Source: Adineta ricciae
Lineage: Eukaryota; Rotifera; Eurotatoria; Adinetida; Adinetidae
Direction of reading: 5' to 3'
Assembly: GCA_905250025.1 (NCBI GenBank)
Contig: CAJNOJ010000151.1
Span: forward strand, 62,001 to 126,000
Length of the DNA stretch: 64,000 nt
The notes under the pieces are model-generated. The model worked only from the letters and a program-made list of their open reading frames with translations. It did no database searches and was not told the origin of the DNA. A program made the position numbers and the translations under genes. This document shows positions 610 to 30,759 of the stretch, piece by piece; position 1 is the stretch's first letter; the number at the start of each line of letters is the position of its first letter.

Positions 610-773
610 TTCTGTATTGATTTTCGCGAAAAAATTCAGAACAATCTGATTAGAGATTAGTTTTACTCAACGCACTCCCCGTTATCATTTAGATAGTAAC
701 TGTTGCTGTCTCTTCATTTCCATTGATGTTTAACATGTCGATCGTAAGATAAGACAATCTAGTTGACTTGACA

Positions 774-3551
774 ATGAGTTTTTCTTCTATTCAAATATTA
801 ACACTAATTTTATTTGTGATCACGTCCGTTGCCTATGATTGTCCATCCTCGTATCATGTTCAGGCAAATTCAACAGATATATCCTTCCAAACATCGTCAA
901 CCATTCAAATTGTTTTGTCAAAACTTTCCTATAAATTGACCGTTATTGATTTAATGACACGAAATGTTCTGTTGCAGAGCAGTCGAGATATTTTCGCTGG
1001 AATATGGGAAGGTACTTATGAAACTCTCTATTTCGGATATATGTTTCGTGCTGGATTCGAAAAAGAACATCGAATAATTGGCAATTTCGAATCGTACTCG
1101 TGTTCTCCTGCGCCAAATTCAATCACATTTTCGTTTCAGGACTTTTCTTTGATATTCGTTGTGGAAGATAACGAACGTAATGTTCATCTACAAGTGACAT
1201 ATACGGGATTCAAAGAACATTTCGATCCTAAATCGACACATTATGTTTTTCCATTTTTGACTTTAGCATTTCGAACACGAGATAGTCAAGAAGATTATTA
1301 CGGTTTTGGTTCCTATTGGGGTTTCACGAGATTTCGTGGAGAGAAATTCTATAGTTGGAGTGAAGATGGTAGTTGGTCATTTCTAAATTTCTCCAGACGA
1401 ATACCTCAATCCAATGCGAGTTACATTCCAATGCCACTTTTTATATCGAATCGTCAATATTCGGTATGGGTAAATGAAAGTCGCCGTGTCAATTTCGATC
1501 TCACTTCTCCGAATGAATGGATCGTTACTACCGAATGGAATAGTACAAATATTCAATTCTATTTTCCCATTACAAATACGACTTTACCAATAAAATCGAT
1601 TATGTCAAAACCGTTTGAGAGATTTTACAATCTCTATCGAGAACAAAATAGGAGAATCAATCCAGCATTTACCGCATTGGTACAAGCACGAGGTGAAACG
1701 ACTCGAATTCCACCGATATTTGCGTTTGGTCCATGGAAACAAACGTCGAATGTTTTGAGAAATGAAACGGAAATCGACGTTGTACGACGTATGATCGAAC
1801 GAGATATCCCAATAACAATTCGAATTGGTTATTTGCATTTTTTTCCAAAAGGAGATCAACAAGGTAAAGCGGTCTGATAAAAATTCATTTCTTATCTCTA
1901 CTTATGTCGAATTTAAGGCCATGAAAATGAAATTCTCGCAGAAAATCGTATTTACAACGCACTTGGCGTCACATCGTTATGTTATTTCAATCCGTACGTA
2001 TCCACATCGTATACAAAATTATTCAATGAAGGTTTAGAGAACGGTTATTTCCTAAAGAATGAATCGAATCTTCCATATTTATTCCCATATTTCGGTGATA
2101 TAATTAGTCGACATTTTTTCACTGCAAGTATTGATTTTAGTAATCGTAATGCTTCACTTTGGTATCAGAAACAAATTCAAGAAAGTATCGACTTGGGATA
2201 CAATGGGTTTATGTTAGATTTCGGTGAATATACTCCGGTAGATTCCATATCAGATAATGGGAAATACGGTCATGAAATGCACAATCGTTTTATTGAACTT
2301 TACCAAAAAACTGTTTATGAAATGACAGTCAATTCCACCGCAGTTCAACAATTACATCATTTACATCCTGACGAATCGAACACTTTGAACCAGAATTATC
2401 AATCGGATTTTGTTTTTCATACACGCAGTGGTTTTACCAATAGTGCTCAGAATACTCAACTACATTGGACTGGTGATGCCAGCGCTGATTGGAATCCGTA
2501 TTCAGGACTACCTGCTCATGTCCAAGCATGTCTCGGCGTCGGAATAAGTGGTGTACCATATTGTTCAAGCTCGATTGGTGGTTATGTATGTGAATTTTAT
2601 CCAGATTTAACAGTGGAGTTGTTAACACGTTGGTTACAAGTAGGAACATTTTCTGGTTTTATGCACGATGAAACAGATGGTTCAGCTTGTACTCAAGAAC
2701 GTGTACAAATCTTTACGAATAATCAAACTGAATATGTCTGGAGAAAATATGCTAAATTCCGTACTCAACTCTTCCCGTACATCTTTACCAGTGCACATGA
2801 AGCACATGCAACGGGTCTTCCAATTACGCGACATCATTTATTGACGTATTATGACGATGAAATAGCCATTCAGCAAGAATATCAGTATACATTTGGTAAT
2901 GATCTGTTGGTAGCACCGGTAGTTCATCAAAATCAAATTGTGCAAGATGTCTATTTACCATCAGGTGAACAATGGATTGATTTATCAACGAATCTTATTT
3001 ATGATGGTAGCACCGATGGCCGGTATCGAATTGGCAGATCTGAAATTGTTCAAGGCGGTCAATGGAGAATGAACATCAGAGCAGATCTATTCACAGTTCC
3101 GCTATTTGCCCGAGCAGGTTCGATCATTCCTCTCCTTGACCCGAGTGTATTCACACTAAATCATGGTCAACCGACTTCTATCTATGATCGCTCATACATT
3201 TTACATCTATGGATTTTTCTCAATGAATTAAACGATGCCAACGGACTAGTCTGGGACGGATTAAATATCCATATTAGTTCCTGTAATTTAAACAAATCAT
3301 TGTGTATCGATATCGATGATCCTTTACAAAGATTACTGATTTTACAATTACCTTTTGATAAAGCAGCACGTTCAATAACAGCGACTGATGCACAACCATT
3401 CGAACGAGTGATGAACTGGCAAATTGTTGTCAAGATCGCTCCGAAAGAACAATTAAAAAACTGTTTTACATATGATGAACAAAGTCGAGTTATTTGGATT
3501 GCAATTATGCTTTCAAAACAATCATCCTTCCACGGACAAATTGATTTTTAA
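774..3551 (+). CDS. Secreted GH31 alpha-glycosidase, sulfoquinovosidase-like
   Basis: Two exons, 774-1863 and 1918-3551, joined by a 54-bp GT-AG intron. The phase closes exactly and gives 907 residues. The ATG at 774 is chosen because the reading frame before it has only non-ATG codons. The N-terminus is a clear signal peptide (about residues 1-21), so the enzyme is probably secreted or lysosomal. The GH31 catalytic barrel shows the nucleophile in MLDFGEY (Asp464) and the acid/base in HWTGDASADW (Asp550), followed by IGGY. The DFGEY and GD-x-x-x-DW context matches bacterial YihQ-type sulfoquinovosidases and related GH31 enzymes better than animal acid alpha-glucosidase. The family hydrolyses alpha-glycosides with retention. 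The true substrate cannot be read from sequence. It sits next to a fungal-like aminotransferase, and both may be foreign genes. An AATAAA at 3579-3584 follows the stop. Confidence 0.85.
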
Positions 3552-3812: not shown

Positions 3813-3863
3813 CATAGTGTTGCTTTCGCTTTTTAGACATTTTGTTTTAATCTATTATTCGAA

Positions 3864-5142
3864 ATGACATTCCATCAAGTTGATCATCCTCTCTTGGTAA
3901 TACCAGGCTCGATAGAAGTTAGTGATGATGTTTTATTTGCCAATGCATCACCATCTCAATCCCATATGTCGAAAAGTTTCACAGAAACATTCGGAGCAGC
4001 TATTAAAATGTTCCGACAAGTACTTGTTACTGAACGTGGACAACCGATCATAACAGCTGGAAGTGGCACACTCGGATGGGACATGATTGCATGTAATTTA
4101 ACTGAACCTGGAGATGAAGTACTTGTATTACATTCCGGATACTTCGGTCAAAGTTTTGCCGATTGTTTCGAAACGTATGGTGTGAAAGTTACACAACTCA
4201 AAGCGCCTGTTGGTCAATGTCCATCACGTGAACAATTAGCAGAGGCATTGAAATCCAAGAAATATAAGATTATTACCGTGACACATGTCGATACATCAAC
4301 TGGTGTTCTCAGTAATCCACAAATAGTAGCTGAAGTCGTACGAGAAGTTAGTCCTGATACATTAGTTGCACTTGATGGAGTGTGTTCAGTTGGCAGCGAA
4401 GAAATTCGTATGGATGAATGGGGTCTGGACGTTGTCATGTGTGCTAGTCAAAAGGGTTTGGGTGTTCCGCCTGGATTATGCCTTGTATGTGCTAGTGAAC
4501 GAGCAATTAAAGCGGTTGAAACGCGTAAAACTAAAATCAACTCGTATTTTGCTTCTTGGCTCAACTGGTTGCCTAGTAAATCTTTCATAGATTCTCTCAT
4601 TGATTGATTAAGCATTTTTTATTCATTGTAGTTATGCGTGGTTATGAACAAGGAAAACCGTTGTACTTCGCCACACCTCCTGTACAACTTATATGTGCTC
4701 TTAATGTTAGTTTAAAAGCAATTACATCCAAACCTATCGAAGAACGTTGGACGAAGCATAAACAAGCGAGCACTGACTTTAAACAGTTCATTACTAATGA
4801 ACTCGGATTAAAACAGGTAGCTATCACCTAGATTACTGATAAAAACACCAGCGGTACTGTTATTTCATCTAGGTTCCACAAGATCCATCTATTGCTGCCA
4901 ATGGTATGACCGCTATCTACTTTCCTGATGGTATATCAGCACCAGATATCATCCCACGATTGGTTGAACGAGGAATAATTGTTGCTGGTGGTCTCCATAA
5001 AGATATTAAAGATAAATATTTCCGCGTTGGACATATGGGTATCACTGCAACGGATACAGAAACTCGTCATGATCTGGAAAAAGTCAAAGAAGCTTTGAGA
5101 AATGTCTTCAAAGACGCAGGCTATACGAATCCAACAGCATAG
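3864..5142 (+). CDS. Alanine-glyoxylate / serine-pyruvate aminotransferase, fungal AGX1-like
   Basis: Three exons (3864-4575, 4632-4816, 4873-5142) with two 56-bp introns. The phase closes and gives 388 residues, the usual length of class V PLP aminotransferases. The PLP lysine is Lys197 in ASQKG, and AGSGTLGWD near residue 66 forms part of the cofactor site. THVDTSTGVL, DGVCSVG and WLPIM-x-x-YE-x-GKP all resemble yeast Agx1 as I remember it. Animal AGXT has SGSGH and THGESSTGV at the matching places. The enzyme should convert glyoxylate plus alanine to glycine plus pyruvate. The C-terminus ends in NPTA, so there is no peroxisomal SKL-type signal, and I see no clear mitochondrial leader; cytosolic location is likely. 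The fungal resemblance suggests transfer, with introns gained later. Confidence 0.9.
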
Positions 5143-5762
5143 ACAAGGAACAATCGATCGGCATAGTGTGCTGAAATATGATCTAGTTTTTTGCACTTCG
5201 TGCTTTTAATTTTTTATGCATCAAAATACACGATAGGAATAAGCCAGTATGATGGCTAACTTAGATAAAAAAAACTGCTTTTAATAGTGACCATCGGAAA
5301 TCTTATAGATTCACAAGCTGACTCGAATCATAATTAGAATTTTGTTTGTACGAGAAGTTTAAGTTAGCATGCTTATGATAATCCAGAAGATATCTCGTGC
5401 TAAACTTGATTTAGTGGATGTTCCAGAACGTAGAGTAGTTTCTGCCATCTAGTAGACAGAATAAAGAATCGCGTTCTCAAGAGAGGAAAAATAATACGCG
5501 TCAGAAACAGCGAATAAAAGGAACGCATGTACTTTTCTTTCTTATCTTTCAAACAGAATAAAAAGAACAACGAAGAATAGGCCATTTCGACTGACAGCAG
5601 TGATATGAGAAATAAATGGCACTTCTATTTACAACAGAATACTAAAGATAGACATTTATCGCCAGAAAACAAACTTGACGAGTACAGTTTATCTCGTTTT
5701 TGTCAATATTTTCTTATAGATACTAATTCGTACATTTTTGCCCTTTCTCCTGTGGAAAATTC
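5143..5762. other. Intergenic, nothing recognised
   Basis: AT-rich spacer after the aminotransferase. The short ORFs on both strands have poor coding character and no recognisable domain. Confidence 0.5.
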
Positions 5763-6301: not shown

Positions 6302-6712
6302 ATGAGTCTAATAGAATTGATACTTTTATTTCTTTACACAAAAAAGAATAATCAAAATATGATCATAGATACGAAAATTGGATTAAGCCAGGCACATTGT
6401 CTCAGTCGTTGTGCTAAGATAACGTTCATTCTAAAAATAAAGATAACAGAAAATGAATTCTGTGAATGTATAAACGAAGACGAGCTGAGAATCGTTGAGA
6501 AAATTGTTCGGTATTTACAGCGAATAGTGATTCAATCACATCACATATATTTGAAACGCGTGCAGAAGAGAAAGATATGCGAGCTAATTATGGATTTACT
6601 CTTATTGTGTGTTTTGTTCTTCATCACCTGTTTTCGATTTTTCGTACTCTATATTCTCTTCTCTTTCATGATCATCATCATCATCTGGAAAGATTTTCAA
6701 AATAACAGATAA
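6302..6712 (+). CDS. Doubtful ORF with C-terminal hydrophobic segments
   Basis: An open frame of about 136 codons from the ATG at 6302. The first half has a short Cys cluster (CLSRC, then FCECIN). The last 40 residues are very hydrophobic and would form one or two membrane segments. Base composition is strongly AT-biased and I recognise no family. It lies 60 bp beyond the 3' end of the large minus-strand gene. It could be chance translation of AT-rich spacer. Confidence 0.2.
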   Translation: MSLIELILLFLYTKKNNQNMIIDTKIGLSQAHCLSRCAKITFILKIKITENEFCECINEDELRIVEKIVRYLQRIVIQSHHIYLKRVQKRKICELIMDLLLLCVLFFITCFRFFVLYILFSFMIIIIIWKDFQNNR

Positions 6713-6772: not shown

Positions 6773-9700
6773 CTAATTCTTACATTTCAGTTGTCCAGGT
6801 TTTTTGTTTGGTTCAAGATCAAGTGAAATTCGTTTGTCACCCTCGCCAGCGTCCAACCAACGATCAATAGGAAATCTAAAGAAAAGAAATCAGTGTTATT
6901 CTCATTCACGACAAACATGATTTACTTGTAAGTTTCATTATGCGAAACATGACGAACTTCAACGGAATCCACATACCAACCAGCACCGATTCCACTACCA
7001 TCGTGTTCGAGTCGAATAGTTGTGATCTGTAAGACATAGAAGAATTTTCTTCTTAATCATTTCCTAATATTTTACCTTTCCAACATCTGGTGCGTTAACT
7101 TTAAAACGATTTGTGGCTCCCGATTCGAATAGATTTCGACTTTTATCTATAGGTTCTTTCAATTCTTGTCTTTCCACTTTGCCTTGTTCACCAAATATGC
7201 CGAGGTAAACATTTGCATCTAATCAATGTCAAAATCATCGGACATGTTCCCGTACAATCATCATGCGAGTCAAAATTACCTGTTCCTGCTCCACTCTTTT
7301 TCGCTGTTTTCACTGTCACTTCGTATTCGACATTATTACCAGCTTTCGAAGTATCTAAACGATTTCACAAACATCATTAATGATCTAGTGTGATACAGAA
7401 ATTTCAAAAAAGCACGACAATCACTTTCGCAACTAAGTACAAGCAGACAATAGCAAAAAAAACTAGAAACTAATGACGAAGACAGCACGAAATAGATTTG
7501 CAGCAACTAACCCTCTTTATCGAAAAAGTCGTCACGTTCAACTTTTTCTTTAGGGGATTTACTTCTCTTATTGTCATCATTCGATGAAGTAGAAAGATCA
7601 TCTCCTTCTGATATACAATGTTTGCAATAAATAATTTGTTACGAACAATATTCAAGATTGAACGTTTTTAGTTACCGGTTATGATTTTTGCTGGAGGTTT
7701 CTTATTGGGTTCAAGTTCGAGACTGATACGTTTATCACCTTCATCTACATCAAGCCATCGTCCAACAGGGAATCTGAGAGAGACAACAAATGAAAATATT
7801 CCTATGAAAATTCTATCCATACTTGACAGTATTGCCATTGTATTTCACTTCGACAAAATCGCAAAACCATCCGGCGCCCGAACCAGTACCATCATGTTCA
7901 ATAATGATAGTTTTCAACTAATACGAAGATGGTTAACTTCAATAAGAATAGAAAATAAGAATGAGCTCACTTGGCCGATATCGACTTCGTTGAAAACAAA
8001 ATTATCTTTCGAATTTCGTTCAAATGGATTCCAACTGTCTTCAGGTTTTTCCAGTGATTGTCGAACGACCTTGTTCTTATCACCGTTGAGAGTGATATAA
8101 ACATTGGCATCAGTCCCTGCACCCAATGCGGAACCTGTTTTTGTTGTAACTGTATATTGAGTTTCTAAAAAGCAGAGTAAGACAAGATTTGTGTAAAATA
8201 TCGAGCTGAATGGAATAGATAAATCTACTTTTATTGGGATCAGAAGGAGCTTGAGTTGTTGTAGTTGCTTTTGGAGCTGGTTCACTCTTAGCTGGAGCTG
8301 GTTCACTCTTAGCTGGAGTTGGTTCTTCAAAAGAAACATTTAGTTTTTCGTTTAGTAAAACTGTCAGTTACTATGTGAATCTGAAGTATCTTTACCTTTT
8401 TTGGTTGAGGCTGGATCTGGTGATTTACTTTCTAAAAATGGAGAAGTAGGTTTCGTATTGATTATCGTGTTACACTATGACATTACCACTGGATTGCCCA
8501 GGCTTTTGAGATGCATCAACATCGATTGAAATTCTCTTGTCACCTTCACCTGAATCTAACCAGCGGTCAATTGGGAAGCTAAAAAAAAGTTTTTTTTTTT
8601 CGATAGACTTCGTTTCAATCTCAGTTTCATGCTCACAAGTAGGTTTCGTTATGCGAGATATGGCGAATTTCGATCGAATCGGGATACCAACCAGCACCAA
8701 TTCCAGTACCATCATGTTCAATACGAATAGATTTAATCTGAAAACAAAACATCATGTTATAAGTGATTGCAGTTGAAATTCGATTAAGCTGCTACTTTGC
8801 CAACATCTGCTGCATGTATTTTAAAGCGATTTGTAGCGCCCGATTCGAAAAGATTTCGACTTTTCTCTATTGATTCTTTCAATTGATGTCGTTCTGTCTT
8901 GGTCTTGTCACCATACATGCCCAGATATACATTGGCATCTATTCAATAATAAAATACAAATTTTTCCCTAAGAAATTCAGCAAATAATACAACTGACCTG
9001 TGCCTGCTCCTTTTTTCTTCGCTGTTTTCACTGTTACTTCGTAGTCAACAGCATCTGGTGCGTGTGAATCATCTAAATATGAATTTTACAACAAATACAA
9101 AGATTACAAGACAATAAATAGGTAGAGCACATGCGATATATTGATCAATAAGCAATAGCGGATGAGGGTAATAATTACAATGACATCACGAAATAGATCG
9201 GTTTCACTAACCCTCTTCATCAAAAGGATCATCATATTCATTTTTTTCTTCCGCAGAAGATGATCCTTTTTTAGTTTCATCGTTCGACGAAGTAGAAGAA
9301 GATTTCCCTTTTATAGTTAGTATAGATTAGTAAACATTTATTTCAAATGTGAGACAATCAAACGTTGTTTACCTGTTGTCGTATTGGCCGAGGGTTTCTT
9401 GTTGGGTTCAAGTTCAAGACTAATAAGTTTGTCACCTTCATCTGAATCGAGCCAACGTCCAATAGGAAATCTAAAACAACGTCAAGTTGAATAAAAAAAA
9501 GAATGTTCTACAGCTTCTCGTACTTGACAGTGTTGCCATTGTATTTCACTTCGACAAAATCACAATACCAACCAGAAGCGAGACCTGTATTATCATGTTC
9601 GAGAACGATGGTTTTCAACTAGAAAGAATCATAATAAACATATAAAACTATTGAGAATCACTCGACTTACTTGACCAACGTCGGTATCCTCGAATTTAAA

Positions 9701-12700
9701 GTCATCCTTGGAGTTTCTTTCAAATGGATTTCGACCAGAGTCGGGTTTTTCCAATGGACGTCGAACGATTCGTTGTTTATCACCATTGAGAGTAATGAAT
9801 ACATTGGCATCAGTACCAGATCCCATGGCTGAGCCAGTTTTAACGGTGACTAAGTATTGAGTTGCTAATAAATGATAAGAAATAGAGTTTTTTTGTGAAG
9901 AAAGATCAAGAAAATTACTTTTTTTCGACGTTGATTGATCGTCGGGTTTCGCCGTCTTTTTGCTTGCGTCTGTTGTGCTTGATGTTTCAGAAGCTTTAGG
10001 ATCAGGAGTTTTGCTATCTGAACAAGACGATAGATTTTTCATAGAGACTATCTTTTTTCCATAAGAAATCAATGCCAACCTTTAGCTTGTCCAGGTTTTT
10101 TGTCTGGTTCGAGATCGAGTGAAATTCGTTTATCACCTTCGCCTGTATCCAGCCAACGATCAACAGGAAATCTACATGAAATGGTTCAATAGTATGGTCA
10201 ACTATGAACAAGATAACTTACACGTAAGTTTCATTGCGTGAAACATGATGAATTTCGATGGAATCGAGATACCAACCTGCACCGATTCCAGTACCATCGT
10301 GTTCAATACGAATAGTTTTAATCTAAATTAACTCTCCGATGTAATTCGTACTCTCTATTCTCTTAAATTACCTTTCCAACATCAGCTCCTTGAATTTTGA
10401 AGCGATTTGTTGCGCCTTTTTCAAATCGATTTATGGTACGATCCATGGTTTCTTTCAGCTCATGACGTTCTGAGTTGGTCTTATCGCCAAACATACTCAA
10501 ATAGACATTTGCATCTATTGCATAAACGATTCGGTTTAGATAGAATCTTTTTTCGAAAATTTACCAGTTCCTGCTCCTCGTTTATCGCCTGTTTTCACAG
10601 TGACTTCATAATCGACAGCATTCGGTGCATGGGAATCATCTAAACATTGGGAAAAAAATATTCATCAAAATATTTATTCGGTTTTCTTTCACAAGCAAAT
10701 CGATCAATGTCCCATTGAAAAGCGAAAGCATGCTATATAGCAGAAGAGACGTTAGCGGTGAGAGGAGTGACTAGATGACGAACCATCATCATTATCATCA
10801 TCGAAAAAGTCATCATATTCAACTTTTTCGGTAGAAGATGGTCTCGCCTTCTTTTCATTAGGTGGCGAAATAGAAGAACGTGATTCTTCTTGGTTATCTT
10901 CTAATTCTGATATAAGTGAAAGAAATTAGGTTTTTTATCAAGTCAAGATTCCAAGACCATTGTTGGCAGTTACCTGAGGCGATCTTTGATGCAGGTTTCT
11001 TGTTCGGTTCAAGTTCGAGACTAATACGTTTGTCTCCTTCATCTGAATCGAGCCAACGTCCGACAGGAAATCTAAAAAAGGTAATCTCGTATCGAATCCT
11101 TCATAAAGAATTCTCTTTTATACTTGTAAGTATTGCCATTGTATTTGACTTCAACTGAATCTAAGAACCAACCGGATGCCGCACCCGAATTGTCATGTTC
11201 GATAACAATAGTTTTCAACTGGAAAAATAAGCACGGTATTTCTTATGAACAAATCGGACAAGGAGACTAACTTTGCCAACATCGGTATCTTCGAATTTGA
11301 AGTCATCTTTTGAGCCTTTTTCGAATGGATTTCGGTTTGATTCTGGTGTTCCCAATCGATGTCGATCAATTTTGTCCTTATCACCATTGAGAGTAATGAA
11401 TACATTGGCATCAGTGCCAGATCCCAAAGCTGAGCCAGTTTTAGTTGTGACTGTGTATTGAACTAAAATAACACACAAATTGACTGTATTGATTTATCTA
11501 AAGAAAGTTCTCACCTGGTTTTGGCGAGTCGTCTTGTCGTGCTGCAGAAAGTTGTCTTCCACTTTGAACTGGTTTTGGTTTACCTTCTACAGATCAAGTT
11601 CGAGTGTATCTATTGATTTGTTTCAACTTACTCTTATTATTCTTTCGCGTATCGAATGGAAATTCGACGATTGCTAGAATGAATTCATTTATTCTAGTAG
11701 ATCTCTTAGTGCGACTTACATCCTTCAGGAAACAAGTCGATAACAGTTGTTGTTGATTCAATCGAATCAGCCAATAAGAATCTAACATAATTCAAAGCAA
11801 ATTGTTTCGCTACTTCGAACAAACATTTTTCTTCATACTTTTGTTTAGTTTTTCGTTTACTATCTGAGATTTCAATTGAATCAAGCGGCCATGATCCGAT
11901 CTTTGTACATGTCAATGCTAATTTCGTTAACTATCAAGCAAAACACCATCCGAAACTATTGCTAATTATGAAATATATAATTCCTACTTTTCCGGCATCG
12001 TACGCTTTCTTTTTCAATGTTGTTGTATATCCATCGTATTTCTTTGGATCATTTTCATTACCACGTAGGTCAATTGAACCTGAGCTTCCATTGTCTCCAA
12101 AGATGGTTAGTTTGATCAAACTTTCCTTATCATCAGCATATTCGATGGGTTCATCACTATTAACTTTGATGTCATACATTGTTTCTGTAAAAGAAAAAGG
12201 AATTTTTGTTTGAAAAGATGATTTGCCTCGGTGAAATTACCTGCACGATCAGGTGGAGCTGTATGATGAAGAATAAAGAGACAAATGTTTTGTGTTAAGA
12301 AGATTTTGTAGTTAACTTACAGTCAGCAGCGCCTTTAGCGATTTGATCTCGAACATCTTTCAATGCACGTTCGATAGCTCTTTCAGCAGCCATGTCGTCT
12401 AAACAATCAAATCGAAAGTCAACTCACTGTAGAGATCGATCATAAAAAACGAAAAGAAGAACATTTTTCATGCATAAGAAAAGAAACATCCCACGAAGTT
12501 CGTGCAACATTTTCTAAGAAAGTGTTTATCTCACTTGGTAAATCTTTTATTTCTAAATATTTGTCAATGATTCAGTCGATAAACAATTTACCTGTTAGCA
12601 AAAAATATGTTAGACTTACGTTGATTCCGTGCAAGTTCCAAAGCTTCTTCAAATGTTTTCTCCGCGTCACGATATTGTCGTAGTTTGGTTTCACTGTGTG

Positions 12701-14617
12701 CAACAAGAACTTTAGCATTCAATTGCCAAATTGGATCATTGGCGGCAACAGCTTCAACATAAGATCGTTCACCATATCGTTTCGCACGTTCATAATCACC
12801 TGAAACACAAAAGATTCTCTTTGATTGTCACCCAAATTTCCCATGGCTCACCAAGTCCAAAATGACATTGGCCGATTTCATGAAATAGCCATGCTTTCTC
12901 TAACGGAGATGATGCTAATGGTATCTTTCGTTCCCAAACTTGAATAGCTTGTGCGAATTGTCCACTACGAGCATAGACACGTCCCAAATTATCCAATGCT
13001 CGTGATGATCGATCGGTATCGTGTTTCGATTCGGCATATGTGAGATCTCGGAAATGGTAATCTAATGCTTTGTTATAATCGCCTAATTCTAAGTAGGCAT
13101 TGCCTAGACGTGAATAAACATCGGCAATGACTGGTTGTTTTTCGGGAAATTTGCGTTCATCTAAGCGCTCGCAGAATTCAAGTAGACGTTGTGCACGACG
13201 GCGAGCATCAACAAATTGGTCCATGTTTTGTACTACAAATGAAGAATTATCTATCTGATGAAAGGAAAGATGTGATTTTACATTCATCAATTGCTTCAAG
13301 TTCACGATGAACATATTTGTAGGTTTCATCATTGTTGTCTGCTTTTTTGAGCGATTTACGAGCATAGAGTGGTTCTTGTTGACGCCAGAAATGTGTTCGA
13401 CCATCCAAATAATCGATACCATCCGATGCTAGCTGGTAAATGGCATCACCAGATCTCGTATTTGGTTTTGTTACGGCTATAAAACACACATGTTTTGATG
13501 AAGGATAGAAAATCGTAGAATGATTTACTTGTGTTATTGATAATTTTATCGAGAAAAACACGATCTTCGTATAAATCACCTAAGAGGTGTTTTGTTGTTC
13601 GCGGATTCGCTGGCGGTGGATGTGGTTTTCGTTGAACAGTCGTATCTTTCTTCTGTGATGCTCGGACATAACCAATTGGCTGTTTCTTTTTCTATTATCA
13701 TTCGAGAAAGAAAGGAAAAAACAAATAGGCATCAGTATTCTATCGAACTGAAGATCAAATTCAAGCAGAATTTCTTTAATAGCAGATTAATCACTCGAGA
13801 AAAAAGATGTCTGTTAGTTATTTTCAAACTGAGAATAAAAAGAATCACCTTTTTCGCTTCATCCTGTGAAATATCATGCAAATGTGAAAAGATACGGTCA
13901 TATCTAATTGAATAATTTACCTCGTCGTTCTTGTAGAAAATCGACAAATCACCACTAGCTTCAAGTTTCACACGGTTTGGATCTTTAAAATGAAGAAAAA
14001 GTCGAAATTATAGAAAAAAAGCGTTGTTGTAGTGTTTTCAAATACCTCCGACGGAGTTATCAATTGCTTCTTGTGCTTTGTTGATGCCCAATTGAAATTC
14101 TCGTAAATCGGATCGAAGTTTTTTACCACGATGATAAAACATCAATGCTAATTCGAATTCACCCATCGCGTACAGCGCCTCTGCTTTCTGATACAAACCC
14201 TGTATGACGAAACATGCATTTTTAAGAAGAAGAAAAAACAACGCGAAATCAACGGTTTACTCTGGTAAATTCTTTATTGCTTTTCAACGATTCTTCGGCA
14301 TCTTGTAATGCCAAGTTATTCTTGCCAATCTTCAGATAACACGCTGATCGAGCTACTAAACCGTTCAATCGATCATTAATATCTTTCGCAGTCGATTTAT
14401 CATCATCTTGTGGCAAAAGATCAAGTGCCTAGATGCGATTCGCACAAAATAGAAGTTTTTCTTGGAAAAATCGATTTACCTCGGTGTAAGATTGAATAGC
14501 TTTAATATAAAGTTTATCTCGAGAAAACTTTTCACCTTCGCCCATCAATGCTTGGAAGCTTTTCAAAGGCCCCTTGGTTTCCGAGGAAACACTAATTTCG
14601 TCGTCTTTCTTAACCAT
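6773..14617 (-). CDS. ODAD4 (TTC25)-like dynein-arm docking TPR protein fused to seven PLAT domains
   Basis: A multi-exon gene read from the ATG at 14617 to the TAG at 6773. The 5' exons (14480-14617, 14261-14428, 14046-14199, 13921-13982, 13529-13679, 13282-13476, 12852-13232, about 12620-12799, about 12320-12400) keep phase. They encode the TPR protein ODAD4/TTC25, seen in LVARSACYLKIG, GLYQKAEALYAMGEFE, FYHRGKKLR, INKAQEAIDNSVG, RALDNLGRVYARSG and EKAWLFHEIGQC. That family tethers outer dynein arms to ciliary microtubules. Vertebrate ODAD4 then has a charged tail. Here an 18-nt microexon (12241-12258) leads into a divergent PLAT domain (about 12184-11760) and six regular PLAT domains of LOXHD1 type. 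Each has the form YEVTVKTG...GAGTGANVY...GDK, then DVGK, then IRIEHDG-x-G-x-GWYLDS, then RWLD-x-x-EGDKRIS. PLAT domains usually bind lipid or protein at membranes. The whole protein is roughly 1,500 residues. Two separate genes cannot be fully excluded, but there is no promoter-sized gap at the joint. Confidence 0.8.
6790..11480 (-). repeat. Tandem array of six PLAT modules as three A-B pairs
   Basis: Six coding repeats of about 0.6 kb, most built from three short exons. Type A reads TKTGSALGSGTDANV...NGDK and lies near 11.48-10.97, 9.87-9.37 and 8.16-7.68 kb. Type B reads EVTVKTAKK-x-GAGTGANVYLG and lies near 10.64-10.08, 9.07-8.48 and 7.36-6.79 kb. They alternate A-B-A-B-A-B. Intron positions match from copy to copy, so the unit that multiplied was probably an A+B pair. 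Disordered acidic or Ala/Pro/Lys linkers separate the modules. Confidence 0.85.
12241..12258 (-). other. 18-nt microexon joining the TPR and PLAT parts
   Basis: On the minus strand an AG acceptor and a GTAATT donor flank 18 bases that encode, with flanking bases, SPPDRA. The previous exon ends in phase 1 (GCTGACT then GTAAGT) and the next starts with AA completing Glu, so the frame runs through. Without it the reading frame from the TPR exon soon meets a stop. Confidence 0.65.
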
Positions 14618-15164: not shown

Positions 15165-15309
15165 CTGCACTTGTCGAACACTAACATCACTTCAATCACT
15201 TTCAACAATCAAAGTAAGTGATTAGTAGCTTAGAATTAAGTTGCTATTTTCTGATATACATGTTTGTCTTCCATTTTAGCTCATTTTCTCAATCAGTCAA
15301 TCGAAAAGT

Positions 15310-15885
15310 ATGCAATTCGTTCTTTCAACATTGTTCATTCTTGCTTTGATTACTTCTCAATCAAGCGGTATGTCATTCGGTGAGAGTATTATGCACGAGC
15401 TTCAAGCTAGCTTACAAAATAGCTCATCAATGAGAGCATTATTACCTTGGCAACAAACTTGTCATAATATGTTCAGCTTGTTTTCTTCAACGCGTTCAAT
15501 CGTCGATATAACCGTTCAAGAATTACTTCCATTACGCATTCGCGCCAAAGTTCAACTTGAACATGTCGGTTCCGATCGAAGAGATTACTTTTATGTTGAT
15601 GGACATGTTTGTCAAAACGGTTTCGATCAACATGCAGCCAATGCAGTTTGTCGTTCATTAGGAAAAGGATCCAATGCAGTATATTTGTTGAATCGTCCTA
15701 TTGGTGATCAACCATTTAGTGAATGTCTCTTTCAATATGGCATGGATAAAATCGTTGTTCCCTGCACATTTTTAATGGAACAATTCAAATGCACTTCAAG
15801 TAGTACGACTCTTGGAGGTTGTTCACATTCAAAACTGTTTGAACAAAGTTGTGCTGGTGACATGTACGTTGGAGTTGTTTGTTAA
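15310..15885 (+). CDS. Small secreted protein with one SRCR domain
   Basis: Single coding exon of 191 residues preceded by a 66-bp 5' UTR intron. Residues 1-20 form a signal peptide (MQFVLSTLFILALITSQSSG). Residues 85-191 match a scavenger receptor cysteine-rich domain: VCQNGFDQHAANAVCRSLG in the middle and CTSSSTTLGGCSHSKL with a final GVVC at the end. The region between the signal and the SRCR has no recognised domain. SRCR proteins bind polyanionic or microbial ligands outside the cell. Here a secreted defence or adhesion role is an inference. No membrane anchor follows. The family is often multi-domain, so a single-SRCR secreted form is short but not unusual. Confidence 0.8.
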   Translation: MQFVLSTLFILALITSQSSGMSFGESIMHELQASLQNSSSMRALLPWQQTCHNMFSLFSSTRSIVDITVQELLPLRIRAKVQLEHVGSDRRDYFYVDGHVCQNGFDQHAANAVCRSLGKGSNAVYLLNRPIGDQPFSECLFQYGMDKIVVPCTFLMEQFKCTSSSTTLGGCSHSKLFEQSCAGDMYVGVVC

Positions 15886-15977: not shown

Positions 15978-16657
15978 TTGATCCTATGCTATTTAGAAAC
16001 AAAACTTTTTTCAAAACATACACAAAAGATAAGCAGTTGAGCAAGTGATTGAAAACGTAGATTCAAGTATTAGAACATATTTTTGTCGAAAGTCATGTCA
16101 ACACCTACGCACAGTTTCGTATGAATTACGTACGACTGTTATCAGTTTAAAAATTCGCTAATTTCTCTCTGCAGACTTCAACCTACGTTGTCTCTGACTC
16201 ATTTGAAAATACCAAGGTCACAAAAAAAAGCCAATATTAACGCAATAAATGCTCGAGCCTTTCTTATCTTGGAAATTGTTGTGTGATGTACGATTGTGCA
16301 GATATGAATTCATTTACATTCTTTTTCTCAAGTGTCTCTCTATCAGCAACGGTTAGAAGAAGAAAAGTGTAGGTAATCGAGTATTTCATCACAACGCAGG
16401 GGTATTAATACCATTGTGATTGAAAGTTTCGAATTTATCATACTCAGATCTCATTAAGCACTTGCTAAAATAGTGCAAATAAGTCAACCAGCTAACGATA
16501 CTGTGCACTATACAACGGTTGAGTATTACTTTTGTTGGAAAGTTCCGTTTTACAAACTTTGAAAACGAATAACAGTATTTATTTCAGAGAGAAATCTCTT
16601 CACTGTTAGTGAACTTTATGATCTATCAGTATTTCACTGAATTCAAAATTCTACTCC
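15978..16657. other. Intergenic, nothing recognised
   Basis: AT-rich spacer of about 680 bp between the SRCR and NHL genes, holding the promoter of the latter. No clear TATA box, repeat or ORF was seen. Confidence 0.45.
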
Positions 16658-18180
16658 ATGCCTGCTCCAATAAGATCGCCTGCTCCAAAAAGACCGCCTG
16701 CTCCAAAGAGACCGCCTGCTCCAAAGAGACCGCCTGCTCCAAAGAGACCGCCTGCTCCAAAGAAATCGCCTGCTCCTAAAGAATCGCCTGCTCCAAAGAA
16801 ATCGTCTGCTCCTAAAGAATCGCCTGCTAAGAAGACCGGAGTGTTCGTTAGTAGGCGTAGAATATACTGCATTGTTTTCTCCATAGTCTTCGTCGTCGTC
16901 GCAGTAGCTGTGACGGTTGTGGCAGTCAAGTTTGGAAAAAAAGCGACCAAAAACATTCTCAATGATGGAAATACTATAAGTAGGATACAACTATTTAAAA
17001 CGCTCTTCATAAAAAATTTCTTCTATACACTTCAAATAGTCACCACCACCACAACAACAACAGCTATTACTAGAACAACAGCTATTACTAGAACAACAAC
17101 AAATACTCAAACTATGAGTATCAGCACGACTGGTAAGTGAACTCAACGGCCATATTGTTTGTTGTTCGAAAAGGTAGAAGCAATTCGAATAACTGCCAAT
17201 GTATCCCCTTCATATATTCTCATGTTGAGGAACGTTCGTGTACCCTTCTTTTCTTATATTTGTTAACATACTATTCGAATTTAGGTCGTCCGATAGGAAC
17301 CGGCACTCTTTGCAATTTGTCAAAATGGGACGAAAACGGCGTGACTATCGCCGATAGTCTACAGAGTCCACGTGATTTATTTATTGACGGCGAATATCTC
17401 TATGTATCAGAGACAGCCCAAGATCGCCTGATCAGATATCATTTACGTACTCTGGAAAAACGTGTTATACTTGCCGGTGTAACTGCACATGCCATTACAT
17501 TGAATCAAGAAGAACAAGCGATTTACTTTTCACGCGAATTAGACAATCAAGAACTTATCGAACGTATTGCAAAGGACGGACAGGGTGAATTAACTACAAT
17601 CATTCCTCGTGGCAATGTTGAAATTACCTTCAGTTTGGCTTCTATAAAAGACAGTTTGTATATATGCGATAGAAATAAACACCGTGTTGTTTTATGGTCG
17701 AATGTTACAAAGAATATTACTACAATTGCTGGTATTACTGGTATGGGTTCCAATGGGGATCAACTTCGATCACCAGAAGGTATTTTCGTCGATATGGATG
17801 GTAATTTCTATGTTGCTGATACCCTCAATCATCGAATTCAATTTTGGCAAAATAAGGCGACAAATGCGACGACGGTTGCTGGAAACTCAGATTCCAGTCC
17901 TGGAAAGAATTTGAACGAATTACATCGACCAAAAGCGATTTTTATTACGAATGGAACGATGTTCATCGCTGACAGTTATAATCATCGAATTGTCAAATGG
18001 AGAATCGGTGACAAACAAGGTTCTGTAGTTGTTGGGAATGCCACTATGGCAGCTGGAAATAATGCGAATCAGCTAAGCGATCCAACAAGTTTAAAACTTG
18101 ATTCTCACGGAAACCTCTACGTGGTTGACAAGGGTAACAGTCGTATACAAAAATTTATCGTAGATAACAGCTTATGCTGA
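16658..18180 (+). CDS. Membrane-anchored NHL-repeat protein with PAPKRP repeat tail
   Basis: Three exons (16658-16979, 17040-17132, 17285-18180); the phase closes and gives 436 residues. Residues 1-60 are a repeat of PAPKRP and PAPKES hexamers. Residues about 69-90 form one membrane segment (CIVFSIVFVVVAVAVTVVAV) with positive charge before it, which suggests a type II protein with the basic Pro-rich tail in the cytoplasm. A Thr-rich linker (TTTTTTTAITRTT) follows. The C-terminal 300 residues form an NHL beta-propeller: LQSPRDLFIDG, LRSPEGIFVDMDGNFYVADTLNHRI, LHRPKAIF...FIADSYNHRI and LSDPTSLKLDSHGNLYVVD. The propeller would face outward and bind protein or glycan partners. I know this layout as common in bdelloid rotifers. 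The specific ligand is unknown. Confidence 0.85.
16661..16825 (+). repeat. Coding minisatellite, 18-bp unit
   Basis: Units of about 18 bp (consensus CCTGCTCCAAAGAGACCG) repeat around nine times, the first copies almost identical and the last ones diverged. They encode the PAPKRP hexamers of the NHL protein. The near identity of the central units suggests recent copy-number change. Confidence 0.85.
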
Positions 18181-24224: not shown

Positions 24225-26460
24225 TCAATGAAATGTACTTTTGTGTTTCTTTTTATTATTATCTCACTTATCAGTATTTATTCTTTACTAACAACTCATT
24301 GTTTCTTAATGCATTTTTACTGATCTTTTTTTTGTATGAATGATGCTTTATTCCGATATTGATAAATACATAATGGCCATTATTCAGAATAAATGCTGAT
24401 CTCGAAAGATTCTTCAGCATGTGCTGAGAAAGTTTAGAAATAAGTGATAAAAAATGTACAAGATCTTAGTATCCAATGTTATTTTCAATAGAAGTTATTC
24501 AAAAATAGATGATCTCGTACAAGTAATGTTAGATTTCAGATTCGAAGAGATTCTCAAAAAATGAACTTTAACCAGAACACATTCGATCCATCGTTCTTCA
24601 GGATTTTCAAGAGAATACTGTACTGAATTGATTTTCACATTGTACCACTTTCTTCAGATGTCATCATAACCTCAATGAGGCTTTTGTTCATCTTTTTCCA
24701 TTGTTTTGACTTAATAGCGAATGGAGTGCAATATCTCTTCCCTTTTATAAATGACGTACATATAAATAAAAGTGTTTTTTTAATCACATCTCAGTGTCTA
24801 TGAGCATCTTGAGGTCAAATAGTGATACCCTACTGGTTATCAATCATGTTCAATGTTAATTCCTGTGATTCATGTTGATTTAATTGATCTGGAAATATGG
24901 ACGTGGTGAATGTGATACAGATTGTAAACATTTCTTCTTCTATTTGCTGGACTTCTAGTTCAATTCTTTAAAAACATCAAAAGAGTATTTTACATTCACA
25001 GTAGAGTGTCTACCATTTTGCAGATGTCTATTCTAATTGTGTTTGTTATTTTAAAGTATCGCAGAATGAAATCTTAAGTAATTAACAAAAACGTGTAGTA
25101 AATCAAAACCGATTCTAATGACGTTATTTTTGTCGTTCAAAGCATTTGCATCGAAATCATTCTGTGTTATATATACTAAATTCTCAGATCTTCTTTCGTA
25201 TGTTCTATTACTTCAAAAAATGAACGTGAATGCATCCGAATATGGTTCAACTATTGTGTATGACTTCGCTTTAGCAGATACTTAATTCATACTCATGTTA
25301 ATTTTCATTGCTCTATCAATTTAGACAATACCAGAGTGCGTCTCATTTAACAGACCGTATCTTTTGGTGCAATATGATTTTTGACACCTTGGAAACTGTT
25401 GTTAGATGGAATATCCGCAGCAATTGTTTTTTACGGCCTTTATTTCACTGCTGTTCCCTACTATTTGCTTATTTTCCTAATCACTCGAATTGAAGTTGAA
25501 GCTGAAACGCATTATTGCGTGTAAAGCTGTTCGTCGGATAGCCTCTTTTTTTATGCACCAAGAAGTTCTTGTTCAACATCGTTAGTTAACGGCAATGAAC
25601 TGAGCGGTTTAAAGTGAAGAAATGGTGAAAGAACGTTTTCCGTCCTGAGAACATATAACTGCAAAAAAAACTTTATCGTTGTTTCTCATCTACTTTGCTC
25701 AATTACGCATAAAAGAAAGTTCTATTATGCGAATAGTAAACTCTCAATGTGTGCGCCAAGGAAAGAGCACACGTGCTGTTGTTTTTACACCAAAGACTAT
25801 TATCTAGTAAACGAAAAAAAAAACGAATGCAATATTAAAACGACAAGAAAGACAGGAGAATCGAAATCTTTTTAATACCGACATTGTTGTATCGTTGAAA
25901 TATTCTCTTGAACAGACATCAAACAATTTCTTTCGTGTTTTATGAGGTAAATCGACAACTGTTGAGTTTAGAGATCTTGTAATGATTGATAAAAATCGAA
26001 TCTCATGCCATTATTGCAACTTATCTACGTAATAGATAATAAATAAATATATCTATTAGTTCTAGAATGATAGATGAGTCATCAAGAACGAGGAAGTCTT
26101 GTGAATAACGAGACTACACCAATCATTTGGGAAGTACGTGGAAAAATATCTTAGTATCTGTTCGAACTAGTTTCATCGTTTTTGTCGTTCTGTTGCTTCT
26201 TCATCAGTTTGTTTCTTTTTCTCCTTCTGTTAATCATACTGTTTCAATTCATCAGTACTTCTACTCCATACTGCCTATAGTATTTTTCGTCAAAGAACAA
26301 TCGCAAACACACATAGTAAAAAAAAAGAATACGATCGATCAAATATTACTCTACCTTGTTATATCGATGCAAATATTTTTCTTTTACGTTTCTTTATTAA
26401 TTCAACGCTATTCATTTGTTTCTCTCTTACTGACACATTTCTAAACATAACATTTTCAAG
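24225..26460. other. Intergenic, about 2.2 kb
   Basis: No convincing gene. The ORF near 25.3 kb has no domain. The last 350 bp (from about 26.1 kb) are the upstream region of the glycosyltransferase-like gene and are duplicated near 28.45-28.76 kb. Confidence 0.5.
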
Positions 26461-27498
26461 ATGTTCCATTCTCATTCAATAAAGCAGTTCAATTATCGTC
26501 ATGTATTACAAAGATGTTTTATTGGTTTTGACCACAAACGATACTTTCTACTTTGTATACTTCTTTTGTGTGTTATCGTGTTATTTCATTCCAATTCTAA
26601 TGCATTCACAACGACGGACATTCTCGAGAATGAAGATATATGTTCGCAATTACTTCAAATCACACTTCACAGCAACCGAACATTATGTAGCGAAAGCGCT
26701 GATCGTCGTGGTAAAAAGCAACGCATTATTTCTCTATCGATCTTTGGTCCAAAAGAGAACTCGTTGTTTGCTGATGATAACTTTTCTCAATTAATTACAC
26801 CACTAATTCATGAAGCAACAGTATTATTTCCAAAATGGACAATACGTTTGTATGCAGATGAATTGACAATCAGTCGATTGAATTTACAAGATCTGCCGCG
26901 TATATCAAAGAATATTGATATATGTAATGTTAATCAAATACCAGTATTAGGTGATGTGGATGCATATTTATCGGGAAAATTGTGGCGATTTCTTCCAGCA
27001 CTCGATCCAACAGTTGAATTTGTCTCATCGCGTGATCTGGATTCACCATTAACACATCGTGAACAGATAGTCATTGAAGAGTTTATCAATTCACCATATT
27101 TATTTCTAACAATGCGTGATCATCCATTACACAACGTTCCAGTCCTCGGTGGTCTATGGACGGCTGCACTGAATCGAAATCGTCTTTTATTTCTTCGTTT
27201 ATTCAGTATTCTACTGGATCGAACTCGTGTTCAACAATATATTCTCAAAAAAGATCAAAACTTGTTAGAAGAATTAGTATGGCCCAAAGTAAAAGATGAA
27301 GCTTTAGTCTACGATTCCTATCTATGTGAACAATTTCGTGAAGGACATGTACGCGCTTTTCCCAGTCAACGACCAGCACGAGATTGTCATGTAGGTTGTG
27401 TGAGACCTTGTTGTCAAAATTCATCAAAAATAATTCTCGATAGACCATGTCCACAGCAATGTCGACCGAAATATCATCCCGACTGGACTTATTGTTGA
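26461..27498 (+). CDS. Type II membrane glycosyltransferase-like protein, copy 1
   Basis: Intronless frame of 345 residues. A single hydrophobic segment at residues 29-46 (FLLCILLLCVIVLFHS) behind a basic N-terminus fits a Golgi type II anchor. The lumenal part contains RDLDS (a DxD-type sugar-nucleotide site), TMRDHPLHNVPVLGGLW and a Cys-rich C-terminus (CHVGCVRPCC ... CPQQCRPKYHPDWTYC). The MRD-x-P-x-H-x-x-P-x-LGG motif occurs in a broad, little-studied family of DxD proteins in bacteria and invertebrates. A glycosyltransferase role is inferred from the DxD motif and topology, not shown. A divergent paralog lies in inverted orientation at 29.0-30.1 kb, and a collapsed copy lies between them. 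Confidence 0.7.
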   Translation: MFHSHSIKQFNYRHVLQRCFIGFDHKRYFLLCILLLCVIVLFHSNSNAFTTTDILENEDICSQLLQITLHSNRTLCSESADRRGKKQRIISLSIFGPKENSLFADDNFSQLITPLIHEATVLFPKWTIRLYADELTISRLNLQDLPRISKNIDICNVNQIPVLGDVDAYLSGKLWRFLPALDPTVEFVSSRDLDSPLTHREQIVIEEFINSPYLFLTMRDHPLHNVPVLGGLWTAALNRNRLLFLRLFSILLDRTRVQQYILKKDQNLLEELVWPKVKDEALVYDSYLCEQFREGHVRAFPSQRPARDCHVGCVRPCCQNSSKIILDRPCPQQCRPKYHPDWTYC

Positions 27499-29003: not shown

Positions 29004-30083
29004 TTAACAAAATATCCAATCTTTATGATTTTCTGGCCGGCACATAACCGGACAGTGTTTGAATGATGAAAAGTCTGTCCTAGATCGTGATTCGTTTGTA
29101 CAACATGGTTTCGGACATCCAAGAAAACATGTTGGATGTTCAATTCTGGTTGGAAAAGGACGTGTATCTGTTCGATAGATGTAACGTGACCAAAAACAAG
29201 AAAATGAATCGTGTGCGAGCGCATTTTGACGAGCAATTGGCCACACATGATGTTCTAAGAATAGTTGATCTCCTCTTTTCGAATAAGATTTCCAGAACTG
29301 TTCGATTTCTTCTTCTTTATCTGACGGTAAAAGTCTATTGGCAATTGTTAATCGATCTTTGATAGACAATCGATTGGAAGCGACGTCCCATAAACCACCG
29401 AGCATCGGAATATTATGCACACTGTTATCACGCATAATATGGAATGCATAGTCTGTTTTTGTTAACCATTCATCCACTGCTTGGACTTCGCGGTCGAATA
29501 TATCAGAATCAAGATCACGAACCATTGTCACACCAACGAATGGATCAACTAAAAGAAAAACAAACTTTCATTCGAAGTAAACTCTCTGTTTCTACTTACT
29601 AGTAGGTAAGAATCGTTGAATTTTGCCTGGTAATTTGTTTTTAATATTGCCTAACACTGGTAAATTTTCAGCTGGACAAAAATCGACATTCTCATATAGT
29701 TGTTCGAAATGATCAATATCAGCTTGACTTTTACTGACTAAATTATAATAATAAACACGTACAATCCATGACGGATAAAATTTCTTGGCTTGTCGAGCAA
29801 ATATTTCGATGTAAAACCATGTGAGGTTACTTTTCAATTGAATACGATCGTCAGATTCATAAGCTGAAACGCTCAGAACGTGTTGATTGAATCCACGTCG
29901 AACAGATCGTTCAGAGCAAAACGATTTATTTTCTGCGAGTAATAATAAATTTCTAGTACGTTGAACGTCAACATAAGTTCTTGATGTAGCTGATTGAAGA
30001 ACGGAGACGAGAAATATTGAGAGGAGAATACAAACAGCAAAATGTATTCGTCGACGAGAAAAGCCAGAAACATTGATTAACAT
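29004..30083 (-). CDS. Type II membrane glycosyltransferase-like protein, copy 2
   Basis: Two exons on the minus strand (30083-29600 and 29548-29004) with a 51-bp intron; the phase closes and gives 342 residues. An anchor segment lies at about residues 12-31 (IHFAVCILLSIFLVSVLQSA). The lumenal domain has the same landmarks as copy 1: FCSERSVRRG, FYPSWIVRVY, NLPVLGNI, FLPTIDPFVG, VRDLDSD (DxD), HIMRDNSVHNIPMLGGLWD, and a Cys-rich end (CPKPCC ... CPVMCRPENHKDWIFC). Identity to copy 1 is modest, so the duplication is old, and copy 1 lacks this intron. A glycosyltransferase function in the Golgi is an inference. Confidence 0.75.
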
Positions 30084-30759
30084 ATTGAATTTGACAACGT
30101 TATGTTAAATTTCATCGAAGTATGCCTTTCATGTGGTTCGTACGCTTTGAAAAAAAAACACCTACAAACGATGCCGATTAAATGACAGAAAGAAAGAAAT
30201 AAAGTAAATAGACACGTTTTATTCTTCTCTTTTTATTTTTCGACATTATGCATGTCTTACTAAGCCAAGCGATACTTTACCTTGACAAATGAACGTCGTA
30301 GTATTTCAAAACACTGATTTTTAACGACAAACGATATAAATTCTCAAAGAATTGCAAGTTTTTCCTCAACGAAATTTCATATAGTGAAGCTCTGTAGGAC
30401 AGTAGATTGCGAATCAAACTGATAACTATGGTCATTTTGCTTTTAAGCAAACAAATCGTAAAGATACGCAATGAAAAAGTTCTTGCGCTGTTGTGCAAAC
30501 ATTTATTGGCAGAGATCTTTGTTTTCCGAAGAATTGCTCACATAGAGCGATTTTTTTTATTGGAAAAACAACAAACAAACAGTGCATTCCTATCATATAT
30601 GTTGGGCTAATCGATTTTCTATGATACGTAACGACCTCTAGTCGATGCGTTCTTCAATTGGCTAATTTCTTCGAATCAATCGGATGATCAGCTTCGTAAA
30701 AATAAATTTAACGAATTTTATCGTGCTTATTTTTTCTCCATTTTTAGTGAATTATCATC
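30084..30759. other. Divergent intergenic region
   Basis: About 670 bp between the minus-strand glycosyltransferase-like gene and UTP11. It must hold both promoters. The ORFs in it overlap on both strands and lack domains. Confidence 0.5.

Follow-up and report, generated by a model that had tools for sequence, protein, structure and literature searches.

Within a 64,000-nucleotide stretch of the genome of the rotifer Adineta ricciae (assembly GCA_905250025.1, contig CAJNOJ010000151.1, positions 62,001 to 126,000; hereafter the window), a gene model on the minus strand joins an N-terminal half that matches the outer-dynein-arm docking protein ODAD4 (TTC25) to a C-terminal array of PLAT domains, and our analysis suggests that the two parts are probably encoded as one fused gene and protein. 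We think it likely that this is a single gene for a single ODAD4/TTC25-family protein, in which the vertebrate-type tail would be replaced by seven PLAT units, one degenerate and then three A-B pairs. The predicted fusion is well supported as a gene model and putative as a transcript.

The gene model and its two halves

The minus strand was read from position 16500 to position 5500, and splice sites were placed by hand. The resulting model has 44 exons, from an ATG at 14617 to a stop codon at 6604-6602, and its spliced product is 1,703 residues long with zero internal stops; all 43 introns are GT-AG and measure 45 to 157 bases. A first-pass annotation of the same DNA had ended the gene at 6773, which is a TAG that is met if exon 43 reads on past its donor. 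That end is probably one exon short: the donor of exon 43 leads to an acidic exon that ends at 6604-6602, and we infer this splice from the sites themselves and because the acidic tail resembles the acidic linkers within the array. Past the last exon, at 6330, there is an AATAAA.

When the protein was compared with PDB sequences using phmmer, three ODAD4 sequences topped the table: 8j07, which we take to be human (E value 1e-101; query residues 19-508 against residues 11-487), 7rro (E 1.3e-99) and 9cpc (E 3e-96). General TPR proteins come next, the best of them an engineered TPR repeat protein at E 8.8e-72, a score that is summed over 13 repeat stretches. In Pfam the protein matches 22 families to E 0.01, nearly all of them TPR or similar helical-repeat families, and 10 of these exceed their own cut-offs. 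The TPR core is similar to known ODAD4 over its full length, and the alignment with the 7rro chain, at 44% identity, also includes blocks outside plain TPR motifs (e.g. GIDYLD..FWRQQ.P.YAR) that on our own reading appear to be family-specific; with these values the first-pass assignment of this half to ODAD4/TTC25 is confirmed. The 7rro chain is bovine (PMC10139691). Since the similarity extends into exon 11 (residues 492-517), this exon is part of the ODAD4 half. The similarity stops at residues 508-509, and PLAT units then follow in place of a vertebrate-type C-terminal tail; in our judgement, such a tail does not count as required for membership of the family.

The six C-terminal PLAT stretches, with unit boundaries as cut by us, score 408 bits with the Pfam PLAT/LH2 model (PF01477; whole-protein E 5.7e-124) against a gathering cut-off of 23, and the ATS3 (126.8 bits) and DUF7755 (53.5 bits) models pass on the same region too. 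Two types of unit alternate along the array in the order A-B-A-B-A-B, with amino-acid identities of 72-78% within a type and 44-55% between A and B, and linkers of 33-51 residues separate them. A phase-0 intron at alignment column 69 and a phase-2 intron at column 102 are common to all six units; an extra intron at column 19 marks the B units, and an entry intron at column 1 or 2 the A units. On account of this alternation and of the intron positions, the array most likely grew by tandem duplication of a two-domain A-B unit. In the six same-type pairs nonsynonymous divergence (dN, 0.143-0.183; NG86) is well under synonymous divergence (dS, 0.587-1.404), and purifying selection has therefore acted on the PLAT copies.

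The first unit is less clear. Taken alone, exons 13-15 score 16 bits with the Pfam PLAT model (E 0.02), under the cut-off of 23, and no Pfam family other than PLAT appears up to E 10. Against a profile of the other six units, hhalign gives a score of 30.0 (probability 46%); 150 shuffles reached 21.2 at most, and 16 segments taken from the ODAD4 half 13.9. The unit shares the column-69 phase-0 intron with all six and the phase-1 entry intron with the A type, while the column-102 phase-2 intron is absent. From the hhalign score and the intron position, we take it to be a degenerate PLAT with an insert ahead of its last strands; counted in this way, the seven PLAT domains of the first-pass annotation hold, six of them passing Pfam.

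Fourteen PDB sequences were matched by the PLAT part, and no LOXHD1 sequence is among them. The nearest are lipoxygenases, namely 11R-lipoxygenase (3vf1, E 7.2e-15) and 5-lipoxygenase (3o8y, E 1.1e-13), and the PLATs of polycystin-1 are matched as well (6a70, E 1.4e-11; 8z6f, E 1.6e-11). A search of genome_contigs with the PLAT alignment confirmed 9 of 41 stretches, all in bacterial records and at 30-43% identity. Bacteria thus have PLATs of a similar kind too, and these matches say nothing on the fusion.

The join and the rival readings

The two halves are separated by 136 bases, between the end of exon 11 (12321) and the start of exon 13 (12184), with the 18-base exon 12 inside. Splice sites were scored with a model whose training set was the gene's other 41 introns, without the two at the junction; the training sites were themselves hand-chosen, so that the scores are not independent of our judgement. 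The donor of exon 12 is very strong (0.23% of GT sites score as high), as is the acceptor of exon 13 (0.11% of AG sites). With donors of at least 3.0, acceptors of at least 2.2, introns of at least 45 bases and no more than one exon in between, the sole in-frame route across the join runs via exon 12. When the variable 127 bases were dinucleotide-shuffled, some in-frame route was found in 143 of 1,500 trials and the observed score was reached in none; random segments of the window gave 167 and 0 of 1,500. A path of equal quality was thus found in 0 of 3,000 null trials, and in-phase splicing across the join, as the first-pass annotation had it, stands as a reading of the DNA.

A direct splice from exon 11 to exon 13 was tried and dropped: the T of exon 11 and the AA of exon 13 create a TAA, which leaves a 517-residue ODAD4 alone, and the fusion therefore needs exon 12. 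The same kind of immediate in-frame stop arises elsewhere in the gene, when exon 15 is skipped after exon 14 (11930-11720, minus strand) and a phase-1 T again meets an exon that starts with AA. The ten exons tested for coding potential scored 0.20 to 1.23 bits per codon, and introns scored -1.49 to 0.32, the intron control being the 25 of 43 introns of at least 54 bases, read in one frame.

Several observations weigh against a fusion. The join is its weak point, predicted as it is from DNA only, and the splice sites were chosen by hand because the frame had to stay open. The exon 11 donor and the exon 12 acceptor are ordinary: across the window, 6.9% of GT sites score as high as the former and 6.6% of AG sites as high as the latter. 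Of the ten exons, exon 14, located within the degenerate PLAT, scores lowest as coding sequence (0.20 bits per codon) and, together with exon 10 (0.31), falls just within the top of the intron range. Searches for relatives gave no second species: with the ODAD4 query, 19 stretches of viral_contigs matched the pattern and 0 were confirmed; a two-row ODAD4 alignment gave 53 stretches in genome_contigs and 35 in viral_contigs, and the PLAT alignment 30 in viral_contigs, again with 0 confirmed in each. The strong acceptor of exon 13 belongs here as well, along with an in-frame ATG placed 5 bases into this exon, as both fit the start of a separate, trans-spliced message.

That possibility is a serious rival, if an unlikely one. 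It holds that one transcription unit contains two genes, an ODAD4 gene that finishes at the stop following exon 11 or close to it (reading on from exon 11 meets a TAA at 12297-12295, for 525 residues) and a gene for a separate PLAT protein that starts at the exon 13 ATG and receives its 5' end by spliced-leader trans-splicing. The exon 13 acceptor scores 10.92, against 10.9 for the best of 39 training introns, and such a site with an ATG at once after it is the expected look of a trans-spliced second cistron. The figure for leader use in bdelloid rotifers is said to come from Pouchkina-Stantcheva and Tunnacliffe (2005). As reported in PMC1925144, these animals trans-splice a leader widely, with the same 23-nucleotide leader on more than 50% of transcripts in two species of different families; in a chaetognath, trans-splicing resolves operons of closely spaced genes, which were annotated as operons when less than 250 bp apart (PMC12460157). 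In an animal that is not a bdelloid, the two-gene reading would have far less in its favour. Against two genes stand the cis donors 56 and 136 bases upstream of the exon 13 acceptor, the nearer one in the top 0.23% of GT sites, and the in-frame path from these donors, unequalled in the null trials. In nematodes, a trans-splice acceptor switches to cis-splicing when it is given a donor upstream, and by this rule the acceptor of a second cistron should have no usable cis donor upstream, whereas here there are two donors and an in-frame path. The microexon codes like an exon, though over 6 codons only, and the 136-base gap holds on its coding strand none of ten polyadenylation-like hexamers (AATAAA, ATTAAA, AGTAAA, TATAAA, CATAAA, GATAAA, AATATA, AATACA, AATAGA and TTTAAA).

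It is also conceivable, though rather unlikely, that both forms are made, a short ODAD4 of 517 residues by skipping of exon 12 and a long ODAD4-PLAT protein by its inclusion, which would be compatible with the fusion. With exon 12 skipped, the stop falls precisely where the ODAD4 part ends, and the exon 12 acceptor is moderate (5.70), as for an optional exon. The T-AA stop is not unique to this place, given the outcome of skipping exon 15, and may be an accident; moreover, a stop codon upstream of many introns normally directs a message to nonsense-mediated decay, and this one would lie ahead of 31 introns. Finally, a mis-assembly in the window might have joined two unrelated genes. One assembly only is available, but the join lies between phase-matched exons with a good splice path, and base composition is equal in the 2-kb segments on its two sides (36.8% GC), which makes such an artefact very improbable. 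We accordingly keep to a single fused gene as our preferred reading; the 136-base join with its 18-base exon offers a clean test case for cis-splicing versus operon trans-splicing.

What the PLAT array may bind

For the fused gene we infer a single mRNA whose product has a place in the docking complex, a tether role and a ligand. If the protein docks as vertebrate ODAD4 does, about 1,180 residues would project from the docking site, and the PLAT tail would have a binding partner at the axonemal edge, either lipid of the ciliary membrane, possibly with the help of calcium, or protein. PLATs are described as binding both lipids and proteins (PMC8051682), and those of lipoxygenases bind membranes in a calcium-dependent manner (PMC7436259); 5-lipoxygenase has Asn43, Asp44 and Glu46 as its calcium ligands, and its membrane residues are Trp13, Trp75 and Trp102 (PMC5113960).

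In the six good PLATs, tryptophan occurs in three alignment columns only, two of them invariant (GW and RW) and one beside the loop asparagine in unit A6. The RW tryptophan we take to mark the place of Trp102; at the places of Trp13 and Trp75 there is no tryptophan in any of the six. The calcium loop was located via an N-D-F-E stretch of two coral-type enzymes, the aligned 5-lipoxygenase chain being without this stretch, which presumably corresponds to Asn43-Asp44-x-Glu46. The loop asparagine and glutamate are kept in 6 of 6 units, and the place of Asp44 is taken by P, R or L, so that two of three ligands are retained; the aspartate of a GTD motif is invariant as well.

The absence of tryptophan at two of the three membrane places weakens the membrane version of the proposed role. 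Membrane binding is possible, but less supported than the first-pass annotation supposed when it proposed a possible link between the docking complex and the ciliary membrane or other partners; the membrane link is suggested by the retained Asn and Glu of the loop, with Asp44, Trp13 and Trp75 speaking against it, and a protein partner appears about as likely. To the specific proposal that the fusion is real and that the array binds proteins rather than the ciliary membrane (for instance other components of the axoneme or of dynein, as may hold for multi-PLAT LOXHD1), we give somewhat less than even credence. The missing tryptophans, the lost Asp44 and the described binding of proteins by PLATs favour it, while the invariant Asn, Glu and GTD aspartate, the tryptophan beside the loop in A6 and the calcium-dependent membrane binding of lipoxygenase PLATs do not. 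We further speculate, as a distinctly doubtful extension, that in this lineage a multivalent PLAT tether, possibly tuned by calcium, is built into the docking complex and joins each outer-dynein docking site to the ciliary membrane or a neighbouring structure, and that exon 12, by being included or skipped, would decide whether the tethered or the plain ODAD4 is made.

ODAD4 belongs to the core parts of motile cilia and is linked to disease. If the fusion is true, it would be a natural case of outer-arm docking with a physical tie to the membrane or other partners, and would allow one to ask whether docking complexes can carry extra regulatory modules. In line with the first-pass annotation, which knew of no such protein, the open-licence PMC literature yielded no account of an ODAD4 that carries PLAT domains; TTC25/ODAD4 with LOXHD1 or rotifer was covered in part, and among the papers listed none combined TTC25 or ODAD4 with PLAT domain, LOXHD1 or rotifer. 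TTC25 with PLAT returned a lung-cancer array paper only and ODAD4 with PLAT nothing; PLAT domain with axoneme returned none on the subject by title, and PLAT domain with tetratricopeptide none on cilia by title. The available part of PMC4415241, found under docking complex, outer dynein arm, gene fusion and rotifer, has nothing on ODAD4-PLAT.

Feature coordinates, neighbouring genes and comparison with known systems

Parts of the predicted ODAD4-PLAT gene, in window coordinates.
Feature	Position	Strand	Basis
ODAD4/TTC25-like half, exons 1-11, aa 1-517, TPR repeats	12321..14617	-	gene model, phmmer, Pfam TPR models
Exon 11, final exon with vertebrate ODAD4 similarity, aa 492-517	12321..12398	-	phmmer alignments reach query residue 508-509
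Gap separating exons 11 and 13, with introns of 62 and 56 bases plus the microexon	12185..12320	-	gene model
Exon 12, 18-base microexon bridging ODAD4 and PLAT parts	12241..12258	-	coding score 1.23 bits per codon over 6 codons
Putative degenerate PLAT unit (~aa 524-676) and basic linker, exons 13-16	11515..12184	-	Pfam, hhalign, shared intron
PLAT A2, aa 698-822, exons 17-19	10974..11462	-	gene model, Pfam
PLAT B3, aa 874-1003, exons 21-24	10080..10639	-	gene model, Pfam
PLAT A4, aa 1037-1162, exons 26-28	9373..9864	-	gene model, Pfam
PLAT B5, aa 1205-1334, exons 30-33	8487..9072	-	gene model, Pfam
PLAT A6, aa 1379-1504, exons 36-38	7676..8164	-	gene model, Pfam
PLAT B7, aa 1547-1676, exons 40-43	6784..7354	-	gene model, Pfam
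Exon 44, acidic C-terminal tail and stop	6602..6684	-	splice inferred; coding score 0.82 bits per codon

The window has 0 matches to the rotifer spliced leader at up to 3 mismatches and no RNA family at gathering score. Several other genes were noted in it. At 753-3551 (plus strand) lies a glycosyl hydrolase family 31 gene of at least two open reading frame pieces, of which 753-1877 has a hydrophobic, signal-like start and 1917-3548 matches the Pfam GH31 barrel (E 5.7e-38). It is followed at 3837-5142 (plus) by a class-V aminotransferase gene (Aminotran_5, E 6e-20 on 3837-4604), which we read as of the alanine-glyoxylate type and which is convergent with the ODAD4-PLAT gene. Divergent from the latter, and about 0.7 kb off, is a small SRCR-domain protein whose start is hydrophobic (15280-15882, plus; E 1.1e-8 for the domain); a proline-lysine repeat stretch and then an NHL-repeat protein come at 16622-18180 (plus; E 9.3e-21 on 17137-18177). 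Two look-alike genes, inverted and facing each other (26434-27498, plus, and 29004-30104, minus), have common blocks by eye, such as MRD..HN.P.LGGLW, and no Pfam family to E 0.001 in the two open reading frame pieces scanned. Pieces of a seemingly synaptojanin-type gene occur at 44447-47069 (plus), with a Sac homology domain (E 7.7e-10) and a match to the endonuclease/exonuclease/phosphatase family (E 2.1e-28).

In vertebrates, one of the linkers that connect the doublet with outer arm dynein consists of ODAD4 and ARMC4, and CCDC151, CCDC114 and ARMC4 reportedly depend on TTC25 for reaching cilia (PMC10139691). Like the solved ODAD4 chains (8j07, 7rro), the protein predicted here is a TPR protein, with about 490 residues aligned and with common blocks such as SRALDN-GRV-AR and LEK-WLFHEIG; unlike them, it has PLAT sequence from about residue 524, whereas the solved chains are 672-685 residues long and are matched up to residues 487-492, so that their own tail continues. 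With LOXHD1, which has 15 PLATs (PMC8051682), it shares a tandem array of PLAT repeats. LOXHD1 is set apart by its description as PLAT repeats only, as against six units and a degenerate one that here stand behind an ODAD4 half, if the fusion is real. The PLATs of 11R-lipoxygenase (3vf1) and 5-lipoxygenase (3o8y) are the nearest solved ones, and the rotifer protein keeps the calcium-loop Asn and Glu, but it is without an enzyme domain, without the loop Asp and without two of the three membrane tryptophans. Polycystin-1 (6a70, 8z6f) likewise combines a PLAT with a tie to cilia; it is a membrane protein, with one matched PLAT stretch and without a TPR half of the ODAD4 type.

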